Assembly (NCBI GenBank): GCA_013153575.1
Contig: JAADEE010000019.1
Span: 1-12,064 of the forward strand
From: Chlorobiota bacterium
GTDB taxonomy: Bacteria > Bacteroidota > Bacteroidia > Bacteroidales > JAADGE01
Direction of reading: 5' to 3'
DNA: 12,064 nucleotides
Every line of letters begins with the position of its first letter. Positions within the stretch are counted from its first letter, which is position 1. Positions 2,484-12,064 of the stretch are shown in pieces. The position numbers and the translations under genes were made by a program. Under the pieces are notes generated by a model that ran no database searches, had not been told where the DNA came from, and saw nothing but the letters and a program-made list of their open reading frames with translations.

Positions 2484-2915
2484 TTAACTAAGCTTTTTAT
2501 AATTATTAATAAAAAATTTAAAATATAAGTAAGAAGAATACAACATTGCTAATCCTATTCCTAAATAAATTGGCATTAAATAAAGTTTCGGAATTGAGTC
2601 TGAGCGTCTTAACAAACTTCCTCCTACAATCATTACAACAATTAAAAGTTTATCTTTTGGTAAATGAAATTGAAGAATACTAACTTTTTCTTCTTTAAAG
2701 TTTGAAATTCTTGTAATGTTTGAATTTGTAATATTTTTAAAAACTAGGTAAGTTTTAATTATGGCAATAATAAAACCTAAGATAATTGTTAAGATTAATT
2801 CGTTTTTTGAGAATAATATTCCCCAACTATACGCTCTGTAAAATAGAACAAGACTTGCCCAAAACCAAATAAATCCGGTAAATAAAATAAGATTTATTTT
2901 TTTTAACTTAAGCAT
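2484..2915 (-). CDS. Small four-helix membrane protein, paralog of its upstream neighbour
   Basis: This is a 143-residue hypothetical protein with four predicted membrane helices (about 7-27, 38-58, 87-105 and 113-135). I do not recognise a named family. It is clearly related to the 139-residue protein encoded 5 bases upstream. Both share an NI-x-RI segment at the start of the cytoplasmic loop, a KV followed by F-x-hydrophobic pattern, a helix ending in G-x-x-LR, a PK-x-YL-x-P-x-Y-x-GIG segment and an S-x-x-Y-x-x-F ending. This copy has diverged more: the CMWAFQKW stretch of the other copy is replaced by SILQFHLPK, and it has lost the cysteine. Five-base spacing to its neighbour indicates co-transcription with the prenyltransferase. 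Confidence 0.72.
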   Translation of the reverse strand: MLKLKKINLILFTGFIWFWASLVLFYRAYSWGILFSKNELILTIILGFIIAIIKTYLVFKNITNSNITRISNFKEEKVSILQFHLPKDKLLIVVMIVGGSLLRRSDSIPKLYLMPIYLGIGLAMLYSSYLYFKFFINNYKKLS

Positions 2916-2920
2916 AAGTT

Positions 2921-3340
2921 TTATTTCTTATTTTTATATAAAAACAAATAATATTTAAAGCTTGCTGTAAAAAGGGCAAAACCTATTCCTATGTACATTG
3001 GAGTTAATAAATATTTAGGTACATAAGGAGTTTTTCTTAAAAAAATACCTAAACTAATCATAAAAATAATTAAAATATATGATTGCCATTTTTGAAATGC
3101 CCACATACAAACTTTGTCTTGATATAAATTTATTCTATCAATATTTTTCTGTGCAAGTCCTGCAAAACCAAAATATGCAATTGCAGTTCCTAATAATATA
3201 CCTCCTATTATCGCTAGAATAAATTGCTCTTGCGAAAGTAAATGAAACCATCTACTTGCAAAAAAATTAAGTAGTATTCCTACTCCTGACCATAAAACAC
3301 CTGCAATTAAAATCAATACTCTTTTATGAACTCTTGGCAT
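2921..3340 (-). CDS. Small four-helix membrane protein of unknown function
   Basis: This is a 139-residue protein with four predicted membrane helices (about 8-27, 39-61, 86-102 and 110-132) separated by a basic cytoplasmic loop with the motif NIDRINLYQDKVCMWAFQKW. The pattern NI-x-RI, then DK-x-C-x-FAFQ-W-K/Q-SY, then G-x-LR and PK-YL-x-P-x-Y-x-GIG is one I have met in single-copy hypothetical proteins of many bacteria, but no function is known to me. Start ATG at 3340 is preceded by AAAGGAT, a weak ribosome-binding site. It lies 5 bases after the prenyltransferase gene and 5 bases before its paralog, forming a tight three-gene unit. This suggests a role connected with the prenyltransferase product or the membrane complex it serves; that is inference only. 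Confidence 0.78.
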   Translation of the reverse strand: MPRVHKRVLILIAGVLWSGVGILLNFFASRWFHLLSQEQFILAIIGGILLGTAIAYFGFAGLAQKNIDRINLYQDKVCMWAFQKWQSYILIIFMISLGIFLRKTPYVPKYLLTPMYIGIGFALFTASFKYYLFLYKNKK

Positions 3341-3345
3341 ATCCT

Positions 3346-4218
3346 TTAATAATAAATTGAACCTAAAATAATAATAATCATTGCAAAAACCATATTTAAA
3401 GATGCTAATTTAAATAATGTAAAATTCATCTTTTCTGATGGTTTTAATATTCCATAAATAGCAAAACTTGTTGCAACTGTTGCTAAAATTATTAGAACTC
3501 TTATAAATCCCCACTCAATTCCAAGAAAGAATGCTCCTAGTGCAAAAGCTATTGCTGAAACCATTGTTGAAATTGCAATTATAACTCTTGATTTTTTAAA
3601 TCCATATTTTTCTGCAAATGTTGGTATTCCTGCTTTCTTGTAATCTTCAAAATACCTCATGTTAAAAGTCATTATATGAGTTGGTATCCAAAATAAAATT
3701 GCTAATGCAAGGAAAATACCTACCATATCAATTTCACCTATTCCTAACACTCTACCTGCTAAAATTGGCATTCCTCCTGATATTCCTCCCCAAACAATTG
3801 ACCAAGCACTTCTTTGTTTCAACCAAACTGTATAAATAATGAAATCGATAAAAAGACCTGCAAAAACTACTAAACTATATAATGGACTTAACCAAAAAGC
3901 AATTCCAAGCCCTAAAATATTAAGTACTGTTCCTAAAATAATTGCTTCTTTTACAGAAACTACTCCTTGAGGGATTGGTCTATTTTTAGTTCTATCCATT
4001 TTTGCATCAATCTTTCTGTCATAAACCATATTATAAACCGTTGTTCCGCTTATTGCTAAAAATAAACTTACAATTAGCCATAATGTCATTTCCCAACTTG
4101 TATAAGGACAACGGCTACTAAGAAACCCAGTTATTCCTGTAAGAAGCAACAAAAATGTTTGTAAACTTTTAATTAATTGCCAGTATGCTTTTATCTTAAC
4201 CTTTAAAGTTTTAAACAT
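3346..4218 (-). CDS. ctaB: UbiA-family prenyltransferase, heme o synthase (protoheme IX farnesyltransferase)-like
   Basis: This 290-residue integral membrane enzyme is closest to the CtaB/CyoE group, which adds a farnesyl chain to heme b to make heme o for heme-copper oxidases. The first Asp-rich motif is at about 63-82 (N-x-x-x-D-x-x-x-D-x-x-M-x-RT-x-x-RP). A second region at about 127-150 reads YTVWLKQRSAWSIVWGG, close to the CyoE YT-x-x-LK-R motif. FEDYKKAGIPTF (about 191-202) matches the CyoE DYK-x-AG-P motif. Eight or nine membrane helices are present and the length is right. Differences from standard heme o synthases: the PPHFW motif is PTHIM, and the PP-x-x-GW segment is GGMPILAGR. It may therefore be a divergent heme o synthase or a UbiA enzyme with another acceptor. 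It heads a unit with two small membrane proteins (5-base gaps), and the ATG lies only 10 bases after a terminator-like hairpin. Confidence 0.78.
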   Translation of the reverse strand: MFKTLKVKIKAYWQLIKSLQTFLLLLTGITGFLSSRCPYTSWEMTLWLIVSLFLAISGTTVYNMVYDRKIDAKMDRTKNRPIPQGVVSVKEAIILGTVLNILGLGIAFWLSPLYSLVVFAGLFIDFIIYTVWLKQRSAWSIVWGGISGGMPILAGRVLGIGEIDMVGIFLALAILFWIPTHIMTFNMRYFEDYKKAGIPTFAEKYGFKKSRVIIAISTMVSAIAFALGAFFLGIEWGFIRVLIILATVATSFAIYGILKPSEKMNFTLFKLASLNMVFAMIIIILGSIYY

Positions 4219-4292: not shown

Positions 4293-5279
4293 TTACTCGT
4301 TTATTTTTTCTTCTATTTCAATAACTATTGTATCTGATACAGCTGTTGTATCATTTACAACAGGAGCAGCTTCTTCTTTTACATCTCTTGCACAACGGAA
4401 ACCAATGTTAATACTATAAAAATCTGGTCCTGCACTATTTCTAGCCCAAACAAAAAGGTTGTACTCATAATTTGTAAAACTTCCACCTCTCATATATCTG
4501 TAGTGAACATCAGGATAATCATCACCAACCCATTGCCAAACATTTCCTGCCATATCATATAATCCATAAGGACTTCTGTTATCTTTAGTTTGGAAATCTT
4601 CGTATTTGTTTCCATTAAAATAACCAACAGGAGTTGTTCTTGCAATGTTACCGCCTAATAATTTTTGAATAGCATTTCTGCTACTTCCATAATTAGTGTA
4701 ACTTCCATCAATTTCATCTCCCCAAGGATATGCTCTTTTATCAGTTCCACGAGCAGCTTTAGCCCATTCTTTTTCAAAAGGTAATCTGTAACCGTAAAAA
4801 TCAGCATAAGCCTTAGCTCCAAACCATGTTACCATTACAACAGGGTGATTATCAAAACCTTTATCAACTACAAATTTACCGTCAACTAATTTTATATGAG
4901 AACCTGGTTCACCAAATGGCATTAATAAATATTCTCCTGCAGGAATTTCCCACTCATGTAAATATCCGTCAAATTTATCACCATCATGATGTCCTTTAAT
5001 ACTATCTCCATCAATTTTTATAACACCTTTTGCTACCGCTTCATTCATGAATTTAGCATATTGTTTATTGGTAACATCAGTTATCATAATTTCATAATCA
5101 TTAGCAATTGTATCTACGTGTGCATGCATGTTATAAAAGAATTCACCTGCAGGTACTTTTACCCACTCGTCAGGATTTACACCTGTATCAACTTCTTTTA
5201 TTTCAGGGTTTACAATTACTTCTTCTGAACAACTAGCAAAAGCAAATGCTACTATAAATAAAAATATTAACTTTCTCAT
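4293..5279 (-). CDS. Lipoprotein with SUMF1 (formylglycine-generating enzyme-like) domain, catalytic cysteines absent
   Basis: This is a 328-residue lipoprotein with a hydrophobic signal sequence and lipobox FASC (Cys17). CSEE follows, an acidic start that in Bacteroidota can direct lipoproteins to the outer cell surface. Residues about 39-300 form a SUMF1/FGE-sulfatase fold. Landmarks are VPAGEF (42-47), MITDVTNKQYAKF (65-77), HPVVMVTW (145-152), RLPFEKEWAKAARG (165-178), YPWGDE (184-189), SPYGLYDMAGNVWQW (236-250), RGGSF (264-268) and IGFRC (292-296). The two active-site cysteines of formylglycine-generating enzymes, which follow the GGS motif, are missing (TNYEYNLFVWAR instead). Sulfatase activation is therefore unlikely, and a binding or structural role is more plausible. 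The C-terminal tail (301-328) is acidic and probably disordered. The start overlaps the stop of the 508-residue gene by ATGA and has an unusually perfect Shine-Dalgarno sequence. An SUMF1-fold protein, NirV, is also found beside nitrite reductase genes in denitrifiers. Confidence 0.88.
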   Translation of the reverse strand: MRKLIFLFIVAFAFASCSEEVIVNPEIKEVDTGVNPDEWVKVPAGEFFYNMHAHVDTIANDYEIMITDVTNKQYAKFMNEAVAKGVIKIDGDSIKGHHDGDKFDGYLHEWEIPAGEYLLMPFGEPGSHIKLVDGKFVVDKGFDNHPVVMVTWFGAKAYADFYGYRLPFEKEWAKAARGTDKRAYPWGDEIDGSYTNYGSSRNAIQKLLGGNIARTTPVGYFNGNKYEDFQTKDNRSPYGLYDMAGNVWQWVGDDYPDVHYRYMRGGSFTNYEYNLFVWARNSAGPDFYSINIGFRCARDVKEEAAPVVNDTTAVSDTIVIEIEEKINE

Positions 5280-6802
5280 TTCTCACCTCCTTCTGTATTA
5301 AATTCATTATCTCTTTTTATATTAAGAACAGGATCTGAAGTTCTTTCAACATCAAGTTCAGCATGTTCTGCTTCTTTTTTCCAAAGTCCGTCTGCTTGGA
5401 ATAAATCAAATAATTTCCAACCTAAGAAAATAGCTAAACTAACTAAAATTGCACCTAATCCAAAATCAGTTAAAAGCATTGTTGTATTAACAAGTTTTTG
5501 TTGAGCAACATCTTGAGGAATGAATAATTTTTTCATAGAGAAAATTGTCATAGAAGCAAATGCAAAGTCAGAGCCGATAATTAAAATCCAACCAAACCAT
5601 TTTCTTACTTTACCTTTTAAACCAACAATATCAACATAATACATAATTATAATTGTTGCAATTAAAGCAGCAAGAATATGCCAGTGACCAGTTAACGTAA
5701 TTCTTTCTTCACGTGCAGGCCAAACTCTAAATATTTTTTCAAGTTTAATTGCCATGAAAATACCAATTCCACTTACTGTGAAATTCATAAATACCATTTG
5801 CCATGTTGGTCCAAATTTTATTGGATCACTAAGAAGAGCTTTCAATTTTTGGAAAATATTTGGGTTTTCATAACCTAATTCAATTGAATTATCATGAATA
5901 AGTTTTTTCCAACTAAAAATAACTAACATAAATGCAGCTAACATTACACCAACTGAACCGATGTAAATAAATGTATGAGCCATATGCGTCCAAACAACTG
6001 ACCAAACACCGCCGGCAATTACAATAGTACCAACTATCATAAATGGCATTGCAATTTTATGAAATATTCCTTTGAATTTTAACCATCTTCCAACTACTAA
6101 AGTTATTGCAACAGCAATAAGAGTTAACATAATATGAAGGTGACCAATAATAGATTTTTGTAAGTGCGTTTTGTGTGGATTTCTAATTAAATCTTCCGCT
6201 AAGAAAGTTTCATGACCATTAGACCAGAATGAACCTGTAACAGCTCCAAATCCTGCAGAAATCAACATTGCAACAACCATCACAAAGAAAGCCATACGCT
6301 CCATGTCCATTCCACTTTTGAAATGAGCAAAATCTTTGTCAGTAACGTAATATTCTTTTTTCCAAGGATTTAATGCTACAGCAAGCATAACTCCTGCAAA
6401 AAACACTAATGATTGTCCAACTAGGAACAAACCATGAAATGTAAAGTTGTGTCCCCAATATGCAAAACCTAAGCCAAATACCATTGCTGTCATGTAACCA
6501 ATAGTTACAAGCATATTGATATTTCTTTGCTCATGTTTTCTCATTGGAATTATTGAAGTCATCATATAAACTTCAATAGCAACTACTGCCATAGCAATAG
6601 TGTGATAAAGCATAATAATCCTACCTGCTCTTTCTTCAGGATTTAAATCCATACCGAGTAGTTTCACGGTAATGTCCCTTATTCCCCATTCTACCATAGG
6701 ACCTGACAGTGTATTAAATATCGCAGTTACAATTGCAATTAGCGATATTGCTGTCAATATTAATCCTTTTGTAGATGTGAAAAGATATTTATATCTATTC
6801 AT
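5276..6802 (-). CDS. Divergent heme-copper oxidase superfamily subunit I-like protein, 12 membrane helices
   Basis: This 508-residue protein has 12 predicted membrane helices (I 12-30, II 61-83, III 95-115, IV 120-143, V 168-190, VI 216-238, VII 248-272, VIII 277-298, IX 333-352, X 368-390, XI 400-422, XII 440-465). Histidines fall where heme-copper oxidases place ligands: H67 in helix II (low-spin heme), H221/H223 in helix VI, H273 at the end of helix VII in VWTHMAHT (oxidases: VWAHHMFT), and H373/H375 in helix X (TGHWHI, oxidases: AHFHY). Helix IX reads FTVSGIGIFMA (oxidases: FTVGGLTGIVLA), and IFSW ends helix VIII. Spacing H223-H273 is 50 residues, as in bovine H240-H290. Missing are the second helix VII His (Met274 instead), the cross-linked Tyr, and the NorB helix VI Glu. 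It could be an unusual oxidase, a nitric oxide reductase-type enzyme or a non-catalytic heme protein. The gene overlaps the lipoprotein gene by 4 bases. Confidence 0.62.
   Translation of the reverse strand: MNRYKYLFTSTKGLILTAISLIAIVTAIFNTLSGPMVEWGIRDITVKLLGMDLNPEERAGRIIMLYHTIAMAVVAIEVYMMTSIIPMRKHEQRNINMLVTIGYMTAMVFGLGFAYWGHNFTFHGLFLVGQSLVFFAGVMLAVALNPWKKEYYVTDKDFAHFKSGMDMERMAFFVMVVAMLISAGFGAVTGSFWSNGHETFLAEDLIRNPHKTHLQKSIIGHLHIMLTLIAVAITLVVGRWLKFKGIFHKIAMPFMIVGTIVIAGGVWSVVWTHMAHTFIYIGSVGVMLAAFMLVIFSWKKLIHDNSIELGYENPNIFQKLKALLSDPIKFGPTWQMVFMNFTVSGIGIFMAIKLEKIFRVWPAREERITLTGHWHILAALIATIIIMYYVDIVGLKGKVRKWFGWILIIGSDFAFASMTIFSMKKLFIPQDVAQQKLVNTTMLLTDFGLGAILVSLAIFLGWKLFDLFQADGLWKKEAEHAELDVERTSDPVLNIKRDNEFNTEGGEK
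5284..5292 (-). promoter_or_regulatory. Near-perfect Shine-Dalgarno site of the SUMF1-lipoprotein gene
   Basis: The minus strand reads AAGGAGGTG, fully complementary to the 16S rRNA anti-Shine-Dalgarno end, 6 bases from the AGGAGG core to the ATG at 5279. The same bases encode the end of the upstream protein (Glu-Gly-Gly-Glu-Lys). Such sites are rare in Bacteroidota and no other gene in this window has one. Together with the ATGA overlap, it supports translational coupling. Confidence 0.65.
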
Positions 6803-6851: not shown

Positions 6852-7481
6852 TTATTTTTTAATGTGTTTTACATAACCATATGTAAAACCAAGTGTCATA
6901 GTTAAAAGTATAGTTGTTAATATAGCAAAAACAACTTGTGCTGTAAAGATTCCAAATAAAGGTTTACCTGCACCTAAGAATGCTAAAGCCATTCCTCCAA
7001 TTCCGATAATAGTACCACCAATTGTTACACCAATGAAACTTTTATCTGCCATTTTATCTTTAATTGCAAGAATTGGAACAATAAATATTGTAAAACCTGC
7101 AACAGAATGGAATATTGGATAAACTAATTTAGTTGTAATTACTCCATAGTTTAATAAAACTATTAAAATAAATCCTATTAAAAGAAATATTTTATAATAT
7201 GTTGCATATTTCTTATAAAATTCACACATCAAACCAATTGCTATTCCAAAAGGTATAAGTGTTGCAACAATTTTAATTTCAGGTCTTGATAAAACATCAA
7301 AGTCAAATAAAATAACCAGCACACCCGAAACAAATAATACTGCAAAAGCAGTTATTAAAGGAATAAAATGTCTATTATTATCACTTTGTTCTTTATATGC
7401 TTGTAAAAAACGATAAATTAAGTAAACTGCTATTAATCCTGTTAATAATAGCAAAGCTTGATCTAAAAGAGATGTTTCCAT
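6852..7481 (-). CDS. Seven-helix membrane protein, putative partner of the HCO-like protein
   Basis: This 209-residue protein has seven predicted membrane helices (about 6-26, 39-60, 69-88, 94-113, 117-138, 146-168 and 173-200) and a basic C-terminus, KHIKK. I do not recognise a family. Candidate functional residues inside the membrane are Glu near the end of helix III (MCEFYK) and His in helix V (YPIFHSVAGF). Heme-copper oxidase subunit III also has seven helices and a membrane glutamate, but I see no convincing motif match, so this is only a suggestion. It lies 49 bases upstream of the HCO-like gene in the same direction and is the first gene after the hairpin at 7556-7587. Composition and codon use match the neighbours. 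The start ATG at 7481 places a short extracytoplasmic or cytoplasmic leader before helix I. Confidence 0.72.
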   Translation of the reverse strand: METSLLDQALLLLTGLIAVYLIYRFLQAYKEQSDNNRHFIPLITAFAVLFVSGVLVILFDFDVLSRPEIKIVATLIPFGIAIGLMCEFYKKYATYYKIFLLIGFILIVLLNYGVITTKLVYPIFHSVAGFTIFIVPILAIKDKMADKSFIGVTIGGTIIGIGGMALAFLGAGKPLFGIFTAQVVFAILTTILLTMTLGFTYGYVKHIKK

Positions 7482-7624: not shown

Positions 7625-8725
7625 TTAAGCAACTTCTTCTTTAACATCATCTTCCTCAACAAGGAATTGTTTAAAGATTGGAAGTATCATAAATACAAAT
7701 AATCCTAATGATAATGTTCCTCCAATTACCCATTCGAATGAACCTCTTACAAGTGCATTCCAATATGTTGCAACTGCAGAGAATAATGTAGCCATAAGCA
7801 TTGCATTATATGCCCATTTTTTACGTAAGAATACGAAAGGAATTAAGAATACCATTAAATATGAAGCTAAATAGTTTCCATATCCTCCTAAGAACAATGA
7901 AATTGTATTAGGGTTATATTCTGGTTTTGTTTTTTTAACTACAACTTGGTCAACACTATGATCTTTTCTTACAATTGCTACTTTTTCACCTGGTTTTAAT
8001 TCGTCAACTTGTTTTTGTGAAATAGTAGTTAATGCTAATGCATCGTAATAATCAAGGTTTGTGTGTGGGTTTCCAAGAGGATTATCATACCTTAATAAGG
8101 TTGGATTATCAGTTAAATATTCAGGTATAAACTCAAAATAACGAACACCATGTTGAGCATTCATGAATACCATACCTGCAACAACTCCGATACCTGTATA
8201 AACAATAGATTTAAAAATTTTATTTTTAACAGTATCTTTATCAGCTAATAAGAAGATAAAATATCCTACTAAGCCAATAAACATAACCCAAATAACAGAT
8301 GGCATAATTTGAACATCTTCAGGAGGTGGTATAATACCTGCTACAGGACCATTCGAATAGTCAGATACGATTAATACCATCCAAGGAATGAACATTGTCA
8401 TACCTGCAACAGATGCAATTGCTGTAACACCAAGCCCAGCAGCTCTTGCATTAAGGCTTCCTTGATAAATTTTGTAAGCTAAAACTAGCAATAAAGAGCC
8501 TCCAAATGTTAATAAAATAATCCAAATATCAAAAGTTGTTCCTAAAATAGGTACAGCTGTATAGAAATCTGGATCAAATGGAATTAATCTTTCCATTACT
8601 GCGTGTAATGCCAATTTTAAAGTTGACATCGCTTGCGTTGGTGCAATTATTAACAAATAAAGCCCAACAACAACTGCTGCAACTGCTGCAATTGTTCTTT
8701 GCATTTTTGTAGTTTGTCTAAACAT
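7625..8725 (-). CDS. Eight-helix membrane protein of unknown family
   Basis: This is a 366-residue protein that I cannot assign. Predicted membrane helices lie at about 10-29, 60-84, 97-121, 142-161, 168-188, 282-300, 304-323 and 330-351. Between helices V and VI is a soluble segment of about 90 residues (190-281) that opens with AQHGVRYFEF and contains a small beta-rich stretch GEKVAIVRKDHSVDQVVVKK. Proline-rich IIPPPEDV (131-138) links helices III and IV. The C-terminus is acidic (EEDDVKEEVA). There is no CxxCH, no CuA-type Cys/His motif and no obvious heme or copper pair, so it is not a standard oxidase subunit II. It lies 48 bases after the end of the disrupted TetR gene, and the 209-residue, HCO-like and lipoprotein genes follow. 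The location suggests it is part of that membrane system, but a separate transporter cannot be excluded. Confidence 0.72.
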   Translation of the reverse strand: MFRQTTKMQRTIAAVAAVVVGLYLLIIAPTQAMSTLKLALHAVMERLIPFDPDFYTAVPILGTTFDIWIILLTFGGSLLLVLAYKIYQGSLNARAAGLGVTAIASVAGMTMFIPWMVLIVSDYSNGPVAGIIPPPEDVQIMPSVIWVMFIGLVGYFIFLLADKDTVKNKIFKSIVYTGIGVVAGMVFMNAQHGVRYFEFIPEYLTDNPTLLRYDNPLGNPHTNLDYYDALALTTISQKQVDELKPGEKVAIVRKDHSVDQVVVKKTKPEYNPNTISLFLGGYGNYLASYLMVFLIPFVFLRKKWAYNAMLMATLFSAVATYWNALVRGSFEWVIGGTLSLGLFVFMILPIFKQFLVEEDDVKEEVA

Positions 8726-8788: not shown

Positions 8789-9329
8789 TCTATTTGTATT
8801 TATAATTATTTCCATACTTGTATATAATTTGCTTGTTTTTTCAACCAAATTAAAAGAAAAACAACACATCTTCCAGTTCTTAACCAAAAGCCTAAAAGCT
8901 CCCATTATCATTAAAGCTAAATCTTGACTATCAACATCATTTGTTATTTATATCTAAAATTTTTCCTACTTTCTCAGATAATGTTTTGCTATTTTTGAAA
9001 ATTTCTTCTGCAAAAATTACAGAAACATAAGCCGGTTTATTTGTAAAAGTATTTGATAATTTTTGATATATCTTTTTTATTTTTTCTAATGCACCATCTT
9101 CTGTTAATTTTATTTTTTCTATAAAGTTAGTTAATTTATTTATAAAATTATCTAAAACAGCACATAAAATTTCATTTTTACTTTTAAAATGCCTATATAT
9201 TGCAGCTTCTGTAACACCAATCGCATTCGACAAGTTTTTCATAGTAAATCCTTGAATTCCTTCTGAATGAATAATTTCAATAGAAGTATCAAGTATTTGA
9301 TTTTGCCTATTTGTTAAACTTGCATTCAC
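8774..9329 (-). pseudogene. TetR/AcrR-family transcriptional regulator, frameshifted
   Basis: The N-terminal part is a classic TetR DNA-binding domain: SLTNRQNQILDTSIEII, then the helix-turn-helix GFTMKNLSNAIGVTEAAIYRHFKSKNEIL (about residues 26-54 from the GTG). The first frame stops at 8937 after KVGKILDINNK. The +1 frame starting at 8941 continues for 55 codons to a stop at 8774-8776 and reads NDVDSQDLALMIMGAFRLLV, then W, FSFNLVEKTSKLYTSMEI. This is the expected C-terminus of the Bacteroidota TetR subgroup with the (DLAL-x-I-MG-RLLV-W-FSFNL) pattern. From memory, that subgroup has about 20 residues between the KIL and DLAL segments that are nearly absent here, so a small non-triplet deletion is more likely than a one-base error. 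GTG at 9329 is preferred as start; an in-frame GTG at 9365 lies inside the operator palindrome. The ligand-binding half would not be made in frame. Confidence 0.8.
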
Positions 9330-9340
9330 TTTCAAAATAA

Positions 9341-9377
9341 GTAAGTTTAGTAAGTAAGTGTTCACTTACAAAGTAAG
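9341..9377. promoter_or_regulatory. Palindromic operator cluster at the TetR gene start
   Basis: A perfect inverted repeat GTAAGTG-TT-CACTTAC occupies 9354-9369. The half-site core GTAAG recurs at 9341, 9350 and 9373. A 7-bp palindrome of this form directly before a TetR gene is the usual autoregulatory operator. On the minus strand TTTG (within ACTTTG) lies at the upstream edge and TTATTTTG at 9333-9340. The latter matches five of six fixed bases of the Bacteroidota -7 element TAnnTTTG, though the spacing to a -33 TTTG is too long for a standard promoter. Confidence 0.7.
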
Positions 9378-11057: not shown

Positions 11058-12064
11058 TTATCTTCCTGTTCTTGAAGATCTACTACTTGAGCTTCTTGAG
11101 TTTGAACTACTACGAGAAGAAGAGCTAGACCTACTAGAACTTGAACTTTTATGACTGCTATAACTTGAGCTTGTATTACTTTTAGGCTTAGAATAACTAC
11201 TTCTTGAAGAAGTCCTTGAACCACTATTATAACTAGAACGACTACTATTATTTGGCTTTGTATAAGATCGATTTGAATTAGTTCTGCTTTTATTTACATC
11301 AGAGCGAGTATTTGAATTTCTATTATAGTTATTTGTTCTACTTGAACGATTTGCATTAGTTCTTCCAGTACGGTTTACATTTGTTCTTTCATTACGATTT
11401 ACATTTGCATTACCTCTACTTGAAGAATTTCTATTTACACTAGAACGATTACTATTCCTTGAAGTATTAATTCTCGAATTATCTCTTGATGCATTTGGTC
11501 TTGAATCTCTCCTTACAGTACTATTTCTGTTAGTATTTACACGATTTACATTTGAACGTCTTACAGTTGTTCTGCTACTATTATTTCTTGTAGTATTATT
11601 TCGTGATGTATTAGTTCTTGCATCTCTTCTAACTACATTATTTCTACTTGTTGTACTTGTTCTTGAAGCATCTGTTGAAGAACTATAAGTTCTTGTTCCT
11701 GAATGCGTTCTATATCTGTTGCCATATGAATAATTTCTATTATAACGATTATAACTGTAATAATCATAATATCTGCTATCATAATATCCATCGTAATATC
11801 CGTCCCAGTAGCCATTATAATAATCATTATATCCCCAAGTGCCATAATAATATGGTCTATAGTAACTATAAGGTCTGTAATAACTATAAGGTCTGTAATA
11901 GCTATAAGAATATCTGCTATATGGGTAATAACTGTATGAAGAATAAAAGAATGGAAAACCAAATGAAATACTCCATCCTCCATAACTATAATAATCATCA
12001 TAGTAATTATCTATAATATATGTATCACTATGAAATCTTCTAATTCTTGAAGAATAAGATGGAT
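11058..12064 (-). CDS. Low-complexity Tyr/Ser/Arg/Asn-rich protein, N-terminus outside the window
   Basis: A minus-strand frame is open from the window end to the TAA at 11058-11060: 334 codons without a stop, start not included. The visible N-terminal part (about 1-110) is rich in Tyr, Gly, Asp, Ser and Trp, with SISFGFPFFYSSYSYYPYS and three YSYYRP repeats, then YYDGYYDSRYYDYYSY. From about residue 110 it changes to Arg/Asn/Thr/Ser/Val repeats such as NVNRTGRTNANRSSRTNN. The last 60 residues are almost only Ser and Arg with some Lys and Asn, ending SSRTGR. Proteins of this style occur in Bacteroidota next to outer-membrane protein genes and are of unknown function. Export and a cell-envelope or DNA/polyanion-binding role are possible but unproven. 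It lies 25 bases before the FadL-like gene. Other open frames in 11633-12016 are shadows of this repetitive sequence. Confidence 0.75.
   Translation of the reverse strand, partial: PSYSSRIRRFHSDTYIIDNYYDDYYSYGGWSISFGFPFFYSSYSYYPYSRYSYSYYRPYSYYRPYSYYRPYYYGTWGYNDYYNGYWDGYYDGYYDSRYYDYYSYNRYNRNYSYGNRYRTHSGTRTYSSSTDASRTSTTSRNNVVRRDARTNTSRNNTTRNNSSRTTVRRSNVNRVNTNRNSTVRRDSRPNASRDNSRINTSRNSNRSSVNRNSSSRGNANVNRNERTNVNRTGRTNANRSSRTNNYNRNSNTRSDVNKSRTNSNRSYTKPNNSSRSSYNSGSRTSSRSSYSKPKSNTSSSYSSHKSSSSSRSSSSSRSSSNSRSSSSRSSRTGR
11853..11906 (-). repeat. Three tandem 18-bp units inside the low-complexity gene
   Basis: Units at 11853-11870, 11871-11888 and 11889-11906 are nearly identical in DNA (the last two differ by one base) and each encodes Tyr-Ser-Tyr-Tyr-Arg-Pro on the minus strand. 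The repeat is in frame, as expected for expansion within a repetitive coding sequence, and not a mobile or CRISPR element. Confidence 0.85.

Follow-up and report, generated by a model that had tools for sequence, protein, structure and literature searches.

A separate membrane protein family with a heme-copper oxidase fold and an altered ligand set: a possible nitric oxide reductase so far overlooked

The contig JAADEE010000019.1 of a Chlorobiota bacterium (assembly GCA_013153575.1), analysed over its whole length of 12,064 nucleotides (hereafter the window), encodes a 508-residue membrane protein, P0001, which almost certainly has the fold of heme-copper oxidases (HCOs), to judge by its predicted model. 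P0001 is most likely a heme enzyme linked to nitric oxide (NO), namely a NO reductase (NOR) using heme o, with a probability of about 0.5. Since its gene adjoins genes for the synthesis of heme O and, in part of the relatives, for a nitrite reductase that makes NO, the family may be a NOR type that has been overlooked.

Fold and histidine set of P0001

The predicted model of P0001 (pLDDT 87.1, pTM 0.90) contains twelve long helices (residues 11-32, 55-84, 89-115, 120-143, 167-191, 213-240, 246-270, 275-309, 327-360, 366-393, 397-422 and 431-468), as an earlier note on this DNA had expected. In a Foldseek search with this model, ranks 1-34 are all catalytic chains of HCOs or NORs or chains of respiratory supercomplexes, and the same is true of the 50 VIA rows listed. 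The best E-value is 1.4e-3 and the nearest folds are those of cbb3 CcoN (8smr_E, 3mk7_G). The search thus returned neither the non-HCO fold nor the unrelated transporter family of which the earlier note had warned. Besides the twelve-helix fold, P0001 shares by position the histidine of helix II (H67) and the HxH motif of helix X (H373 and H375), which are kept in 148-149 of 149 relatives. Of the other usual ligands, a helix VI histidine followed by an adjacent histidine pair after helix VII, the pair is missing and H276 alone is conserved in its region.

Similarity to HCOs was not found in sequence. P0001 (Pfam, NCBIfam) and the 21 members scanned have no match to PF00115 or to another HCO model, and PDB sequence searches with P0001 and with a 133-row profile gave no HCO link. 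In the same way, hhalign found no match with cbb3, qNOR, A-type, NOR-like and NnrS-like alignments; the HCO alignments held 2 to 22 sequences, some rows being partial, and the family alignment is shallow, so that weak homology may escape. According to an excerpt of PMC3084760, six conserved histidines are the entry criterion for HCOs. Because this ligand set and similarity to PF00115 were both looked for and neither was found, the P0001 family should not be filed in the HCO superfamily as usually meant. From the model, it almost certainly has the HCO fold, and it probably works like an HCO. The proposal of the earlier note that it forms a separate, possibly undescribed branch with an altered ligand set is supported by the fold search, by conservation and by a literature search, which found no description in the open PMC literature by title or abstract start, an earlier description elsewhere being possible.

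In a wide alignment of 149 sequences, reaching down to 32% identity (11 of them at 32-40%), six of the 17 histidines of P0001 are invariant (H67, H123, H221, H223, H276 and H373) and a seventh, H375, is kept in 148. The ten others are kept in 7 to 137 sequences, the best of them being H248 (137). As judged from this alignment, the conservation of the seven is above chance.

All the histidines highlighted earlier (67, 221, 223, 273, 276, 373 and 375) are present in the open reading frame, and the FTVSG landmark lies at residues 341-345. However, position 273 varies: 53 of 265 family members have His there, as do 19 of the 149 sequences of the wide alignment, where Glu is commonest (76), and Met is found at position 274 in only 8 of the 149. 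The His-Met pair of helix VII and the VW-x-H landmark, which rests on H273, are hence not meaningful. The 50 residues between H223 and H273 were counted correctly, but their agreement with bovine subunit I loses its meaning, and H273 and M274, once proposed as metal ligands, are both rejected. The conserved histidine of this region is H276; neither H123 nor the double invariance of H221 and H223 figured in the earlier ligand list.

Helix VI of P0001 thus carries two histidines two residues apart, and a single histidine at the start of helix VIII replaces the canonical pair, whereas in the canonical HCO sequences compared helix VI has one histidine and two adjacent ones follow helix VII. Compared to HCO subunit I, of which cbb3 CcoN is the nearest, P0001 therefore lacks both sequence similarity and the adjacent pair, as well as the helix VI Tyr, and has an extra invariant histidine at position 123 and two, not one, in helix VI; in known HCOs nothing corresponds to H123 or to one of H221/H223. 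As noticed earlier, neither Tyr nor Glu is found four residues after the helix VI histidines: position 227, after H223, is T in 109 sequences, A in 26, S in 13 and M in 1, and position 225, after H221, is Met in all 149. M225 (codon 6128-6130) lies on the same helix face as H221 and could be an axial ligand or a second-shell residue. Y280, four residues after H276, is kept in 139 of 149 sequences and lost in 9 of the 11 divergent members, and was rejected as a universal redox Tyr. In O2 reductases, a Tyr is joined to a histidine that binds the metal; it stands in helix VI in the A and B families and at another place in the C family.

The HCO fold is a ring of three pores, two of which hold hemes. 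Comparison by hhalign of the arc of helices III-VI (residues 87-242) with that of helices VII-X (242-395) gives an alignment of 124 columns (E 0.0016), or of 121 columns with a wider alignment (E 2.2e-4, score 31.2), against a maximal score of 22.5 for 60 column shuffles and of 22.1 for the reversed arc. This internal repeat pairs H123 with H276 and GHLHIM with GHWHIL. The third arc (C) aligns weakly with arcs A and B (E 0.031 and 0.019), and a [TA][VL][ST]G motif was recognized by eye in helix I (TLSG34), helix V (AVTG190) and helix IX (TVSG345), G345 not being kept in divergent members. When alignments of cbb3, A-type HCOs and qNOR were compared in this way, E was 0.046, 0.12 and 0.26. The repeat thus seems stronger in the P0001 family, a comparison that is suggestive only, these other alignments being shallower.

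Two histidines two residues apart on a helix must face opposite sides. From the side that each faces, H223 would be the CuB/FeB histidine and H221 would face the third pore, where the repeat would also place H123. This placement suggests a third cofactor in pore A, a proposal held at rather less than even odds. Still more tentative is the combined picture of a three-cofactor HCO fold, in which the third cofactor (most simply a heme) on H221 and H123 in pore A would mirror pore B (H373, H276), the high-spin heme would face a non-heme metal held by two histidines, and the protein would represent a new class of NOR.

Heme O synthase and nitric oxide genes around the HCO-fold gene

The gene neighbourhood was counted at 38 loci (37 and the window), many of them on cut contigs. 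The genes for an FGE-sulfatase-domain protein (FGE gene) and for heme O synthase (CtaB) are the most constant neighbours (36 each; see Table 1 for the others shared with the window), and rarer neighbours are a cluster 7 membrane protein (11), a CRP/FNR regulator (8) and a NapH-like ferredoxin (6). At 26 loci, 4 nucleotides are shared by the HCO-fold and FGE genes, and in the window such an overlap lies at the stop of the HCO-fold gene. Furthermore, the relative P0159 (780 residues) is a natural in-frame fusion of an HCO-fold protein with an FGE-sulfatase domain. This domain is also found in NirV proteins, which accompany nirK. The cluster 3 protein has an invariant histidine (H125, 38/38) and a predicted model of about seven helices (pTM 0.89); no histidine is conserved among 23 sequences of the cluster 4 protein. 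At four loci from Neomarinimicrobiota (L014, L015, L016 and L019), a second gene of the CtaB cluster (293 amino acids) lies upstream, between the TetR and cluster 4 genes.

A heme O synthase gene also adjoins the HCO-fold gene in the case of cytochromes bo3 and aa3. Unlike these oxidases, the P0001 loci gave neither a CuA/cupredoxin subunit II nor a subunit III among the recurring neighbours scanned. The known NORs differ from the P0001 family, whose operon has a heme O synthase. No PF00115 gene was seen in 11 of 37 carrier genomes, the completeness of which is not given, so that CtaB has no other known customer there. As proof of heme O use, the absence of canonical HCOs from carriers is weak, because 45 of 55 carriers from Anaerolineae have a PF00115 match (counted by eye), versus 165 of 243 non-carriers, and because the completeness of these genomes is not given either. 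On the whole, it is likely that the P0001 family uses heme O.

Both gene context and co-occurrence link the family to NO metabolism. At locus L033, for example, the genes follow each other in the order Rrf2 regulator, YgbA_NO (PF11756, E 5.7e-41), cluster 3, HCO-fold gene, FGE gene and CtaB, and YgbA_NO is encoded by 12 of 37 carrier genomes (only carriers being counted). The upstream regions (24,293 bases) contain 7 FNR/HcpR-type palindromes (TTGAYN4RTCAA), at 6 of the 38 loci, for an expectation of 0.2 and at most 3 in 200 simulated sets; HcpR sites have the form TTGACnnnnGTCAA in the part of PMC1274295 that describes them. At locus L185, CRP/FNR, cluster 3, HCO-fold gene, FGE gene, CtaB, cluster 12 and nirS form a run on one strand, the nirS product combining two cytochrome c domains with cytochrome d1 (E 3.7e-119). 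L184 has the same gene order, its FGE frame being confirmed separately, and nirS is thus the last gene of the operon in two genomes. At L186, nirS and three CRP/FNR genes lie divergently. In genome G615, a protein with a nitrite/sulfite reductase domain (L189:1-1185; PF01077, E 2.1e-45) is encoded downstream of the operon.

Co-occurrence was counted in 298 Anaerolineae genomes, NirS, the cd1 nitrite reductase, being recognized by its cytochrome d1 domain (PF02239 at E 1e-40). Of the 55 carriers, 14 have NirS, versus 16 of 243 other genomes (p 1.6e-4); when carriers are limited to the main family, the counts are 12 of 38 versus 18 of 260 (p 5.7e-5). The carriers G621 and G767, which have fragments, stand outside the main family in this count. 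NirK scores over the cut-off in 11 of the 38 main-family carriers versus 25 of 260 (p 0.002), and in 11 of all 55 versus 25 of 243 (p 0.064). Either nitrite reductase (Nir) is present in 18 of 38 main-family carriers versus 41 of 260 (p 3e-5). A canonical NOR was not found in 7 of the 20 Nir-bearing carriers (G525, G604, G608, G620, G683, G767 and G770), some of which have weak unclassified fragments.

Proposed reaction and competing explanations

P0001 would be the catalytic subunit of a separate HCO-fold family. H67 and H375 would hold a low-spin heme and H373 a high-spin heme, probably heme o, which would face a non-heme metal on two histidines (H223 and H276), perhaps with a carboxylate. 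A third cofactor, in the simplest case another heme, would sit on H221 and H123, filling the pore that is empty in canonical HCOs. Since the recurring neighbours scanned include no cytochrome c or cupredoxin family, quinol is the probable electron donor. The likely reaction would be the reduction of NO, by which anaerobic or microaerophilic bacteria would either respire or detoxify NO. That the protein acts on NO has slightly better than even chances.

Several observations weigh against this proposal. The locus of the window itself has none of the 7 palindromes. In the divergent subfamily and fragments, the Nir link is absent (2 of 17), and the divergent subfamily has no FGE neighbour (none at the 14 divergent loci fetched, CtaB adjoining at 3); the co-occurrence test is uncorrected for phylogeny or genome completeness. 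Moreover, 13 of the 20 Nir-bearing carriers have a canonical NOR (Gln, Glu or Asn four residues after the helix VI histidine and an intact histidine pair), as does the genome of the window, which encodes a qNOR (L002). In G540 and G615, the distance between nirS and an eNOR-type gene is about 1.0 and 2.5 kb, and in other NirS-bearing carriers nirS is distant from the HCO-fold gene or on another contig. The pairing of nirS with the HCO-fold gene is thus not constant. The signature of eNOR is Gln, as stated in a portion of PMC8756737. The candidate active-site residues differ from those of the NORs described (cNOR, qNOR, eNOR, sNOR and gNOR). According to the same portion of PMC8756737, these have Glu, Gln, Asn or Asp four residues after the helix VI histidine, where P0001 has T/A/S/M (T227) or Met (M225). 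In qNOR, three histidines bind FeB (His486, His537 and His538, in an excerpt of PMC10256718), whereas P0001 has two candidates, H223 and H276.

The presence of canonical NORs in 13 of the 20 Nir-bearing carriers implies that NO reduction may already be covered there. P0001 could then be a membrane electron-transfer protein with bis-histidine hemes (H67-H375, H373-H276 and H221-H123), passing the electrons of quinol on to NirS or other acceptors in the periplasm, with no catalytic binuclear centre, a possibility already considered in the earlier note. The missing canonical histidine pair of the non-heme metal fits this explanation, as does the location of nirS, whose product requires electrons, in the same gene run in two genomes. 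It is however unlikely, as it leaves the invariant H223 without a role, NirS is undetected by the d1 test in 41 of 55 carriers and, to our knowledge, no HCO-fold protein works as a pure electron carrier. Somewhat less probably, P0001 would reduce or scavenge O2 at an active site containing heme o. Such a function would agree with the constant CtaB neighbour, with the His-Tyr spacing of four (H276-Y280) in 139 of 149 sequences and with the use of heme o and heme a by the A-family O2 reductases bo3 and aa3, mentioned in part of PMC8780969. The loss of Tyr 280 in most divergent members, the lack of a Tyr at the canonical helix VI position, a gene context that points to N-oxides and the PF00115 gene already present in 45 of the 55 Anaerolineae carriers argue against it.

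The NO-stress genes adjoining the operon at L033 could also be expected if P0001 were an HCO-fold heme protein of the NnrS kind, supporting NO tolerance or the handling of metal or heme and not reducing NO itself; in an excerpt of PMC1274295, NnrS figures in several NO regulons and is called a hypothetical heme-copper membrane protein. This is improbable, since P0001 has no match to an NnrS model (Pfam, NCBIfam) and since its full histidine set and a heme O synthase of its own suggest an active redox enzyme. NnrS and a family found at L066 are HCO-like membrane proteins, as is P0001. The L066 family has its HxH in helix VI and matches PF00115, whereas P0001 matches neither PF00115 nor the NnrS model. 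This family of about 435 amino acids (L066:1150-2445; also L058, L065 and L067) occurs in the same bacteria, and positions 211-400 of PF00115 align with residues 55-244 of its L066 member, as if the profile were displaced by one ring arc. Other HCO paralogues, from Anaerolineae (L222, L224 and L211), have a good PF00115 match and have lost several metal-ligand histidines. Finally, the lack of detected sequence or profile similarity to HCOs, the modest best Foldseek E-value and the source names "MFS family permease" or "YfcA" of a few relatives would fit a twelve-helix transporter unrelated to HCOs and only resembling their fold; given the HCO and NOR chains returned by Foldseek, this is very improbable.

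The window and the distribution of the family

The window is an entire contig of a draft genome (1.75 Mb, 313 contigs, 71% complete). A cbb3 oxidase (L001) is encoded there as well, and the qNOR has a NorB cytochrome-c-like domain. On the minus strand of the window, the genes follow the order TetR, 366-residue protein, 209-residue protein, HCO-fold gene, FGE gene, heme O synthase and two small membrane proteins (Table 1). The TetR open reading frame has 142 amino acids, versus 191-208 at related loci, and may be truncated or misassembled. A low-complexity region (11633-12001) is open on both strands (122 amino acids each), one product being rich in Ile, Asp and Thr and the other in Asn, His and Tyr.

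Table 1. Coordinates in the window of the P0001 gene, its conserved histidine codons and the neighbouring genes.
Feature	Position	Strand	Evidence
HCO-fold membrane protein P0001, 508 aa	5276..6802	-	open reading frame; predicted model; fold search; relatives
Codon of H67 (helix II)	6602..6604	-	His 149/149
Codon of H123 (helix IV start)	6434..6436	-	His 149/149; paired with H276 in the internal repeat
Codons of H221, L222, H223 (helix VI, GHLH motif)	6134..6142	-	both His 149/149; paired with helix X GHWH
Codon of H276 (helix VIII start)	5975..5977	-	His 149/149
Codons of H373, W374, H375 (helix X, GHWH motif)	5678..5686	-	H373 149/149, H375 148/149
FGE-sulfatase-domain protein, lipoprotein-like start	4293..5279	-	PF03781 E 1.5e-41; 36/38 loci
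Heme O synthase (CtaB/CyoE)	3346..4218	-	TIGR01473 210.6 bits, barely above the cut-off (210.3); 36/38 loci
209-aa membrane protein (cluster 3)	6852..7481	-	30/38 loci; invariant H125; predicted model
366-aa membrane protein (cluster 4)	7625..8725	-	23/38 loci; no conserved His
TetR-family regulator (cluster 5)	8937..9365	-	PF00440 E 9.4e-12; 16/38 loci
Two small, mutually related membrane proteins (cluster 6)	2921-3340 and 2484-2915	-	16/38 loci

Of 8,000 candidates scored in a protein search from P0001, 3,196 are relatives at E 0.001; the best 120 of these have no Pfam domain and, where a descriptive name is given, it is "hypothetical protein". Starting from the most divergent member then known, 3,257 relatives were obtained; among the best 120 of these, only P0159 has a Pfam domain and a few are named "uncharacterized membrane protein YfcA" or "MFS family permease". 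The 37 loci, which come from one contig scan, belong by title to Bacteroidales, Chlorobi, Ignavibacteria, Neomarinimicrobiota, Aminicenantes, Anaerolineales/Chloroflexi, Spirochaetales and Thermaerobacter (one being untitled), hence to at least 8 phyla by title. Split or truncated genes (L009, L010, L012, L013, L023 and L037) were kept in the neighbourhood counts and out of the protein alignments; of the 14 divergent places fetched, L148, L151 and L153 are not in the divergent alignment, and the main-family L163 was also left out. In a tree of 35 rows, a single divergent clade stands deeply apart from the main one, which tracks phylum fairly closely (8 changes for a minimum of 6), with a program warning of long branches.

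The presence of the family across genomes is patchy. It was found in 4 of 60 genomes comprising that of the window (which is one of the 4) and its relatives, in 55 of 298 Anaerolineae (the class of L025, by title), in 14 of 199 Neomarinimicrobiota (the phylum of L016, by title) and, among 395 genomes of the window's phylum, only in the window's own. The plasmid collection searched gave no match.

If the NOR reading is right, this family would be a widespread enzyme that is invisible to surveys of HCOs and NORs, because the standard models on which they rely do not detect it, and counts of NO-removing anaerobic bacteria would change. The HCO superfamily would also gain a member whose pseudo-threefold symmetry is readable in its sequence and whose metal sites may extend to a pore thought to be empty. 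Were the three-cofactor arrangement true, the superfamily would have a near-threefold layout, all three pores of which would be used.

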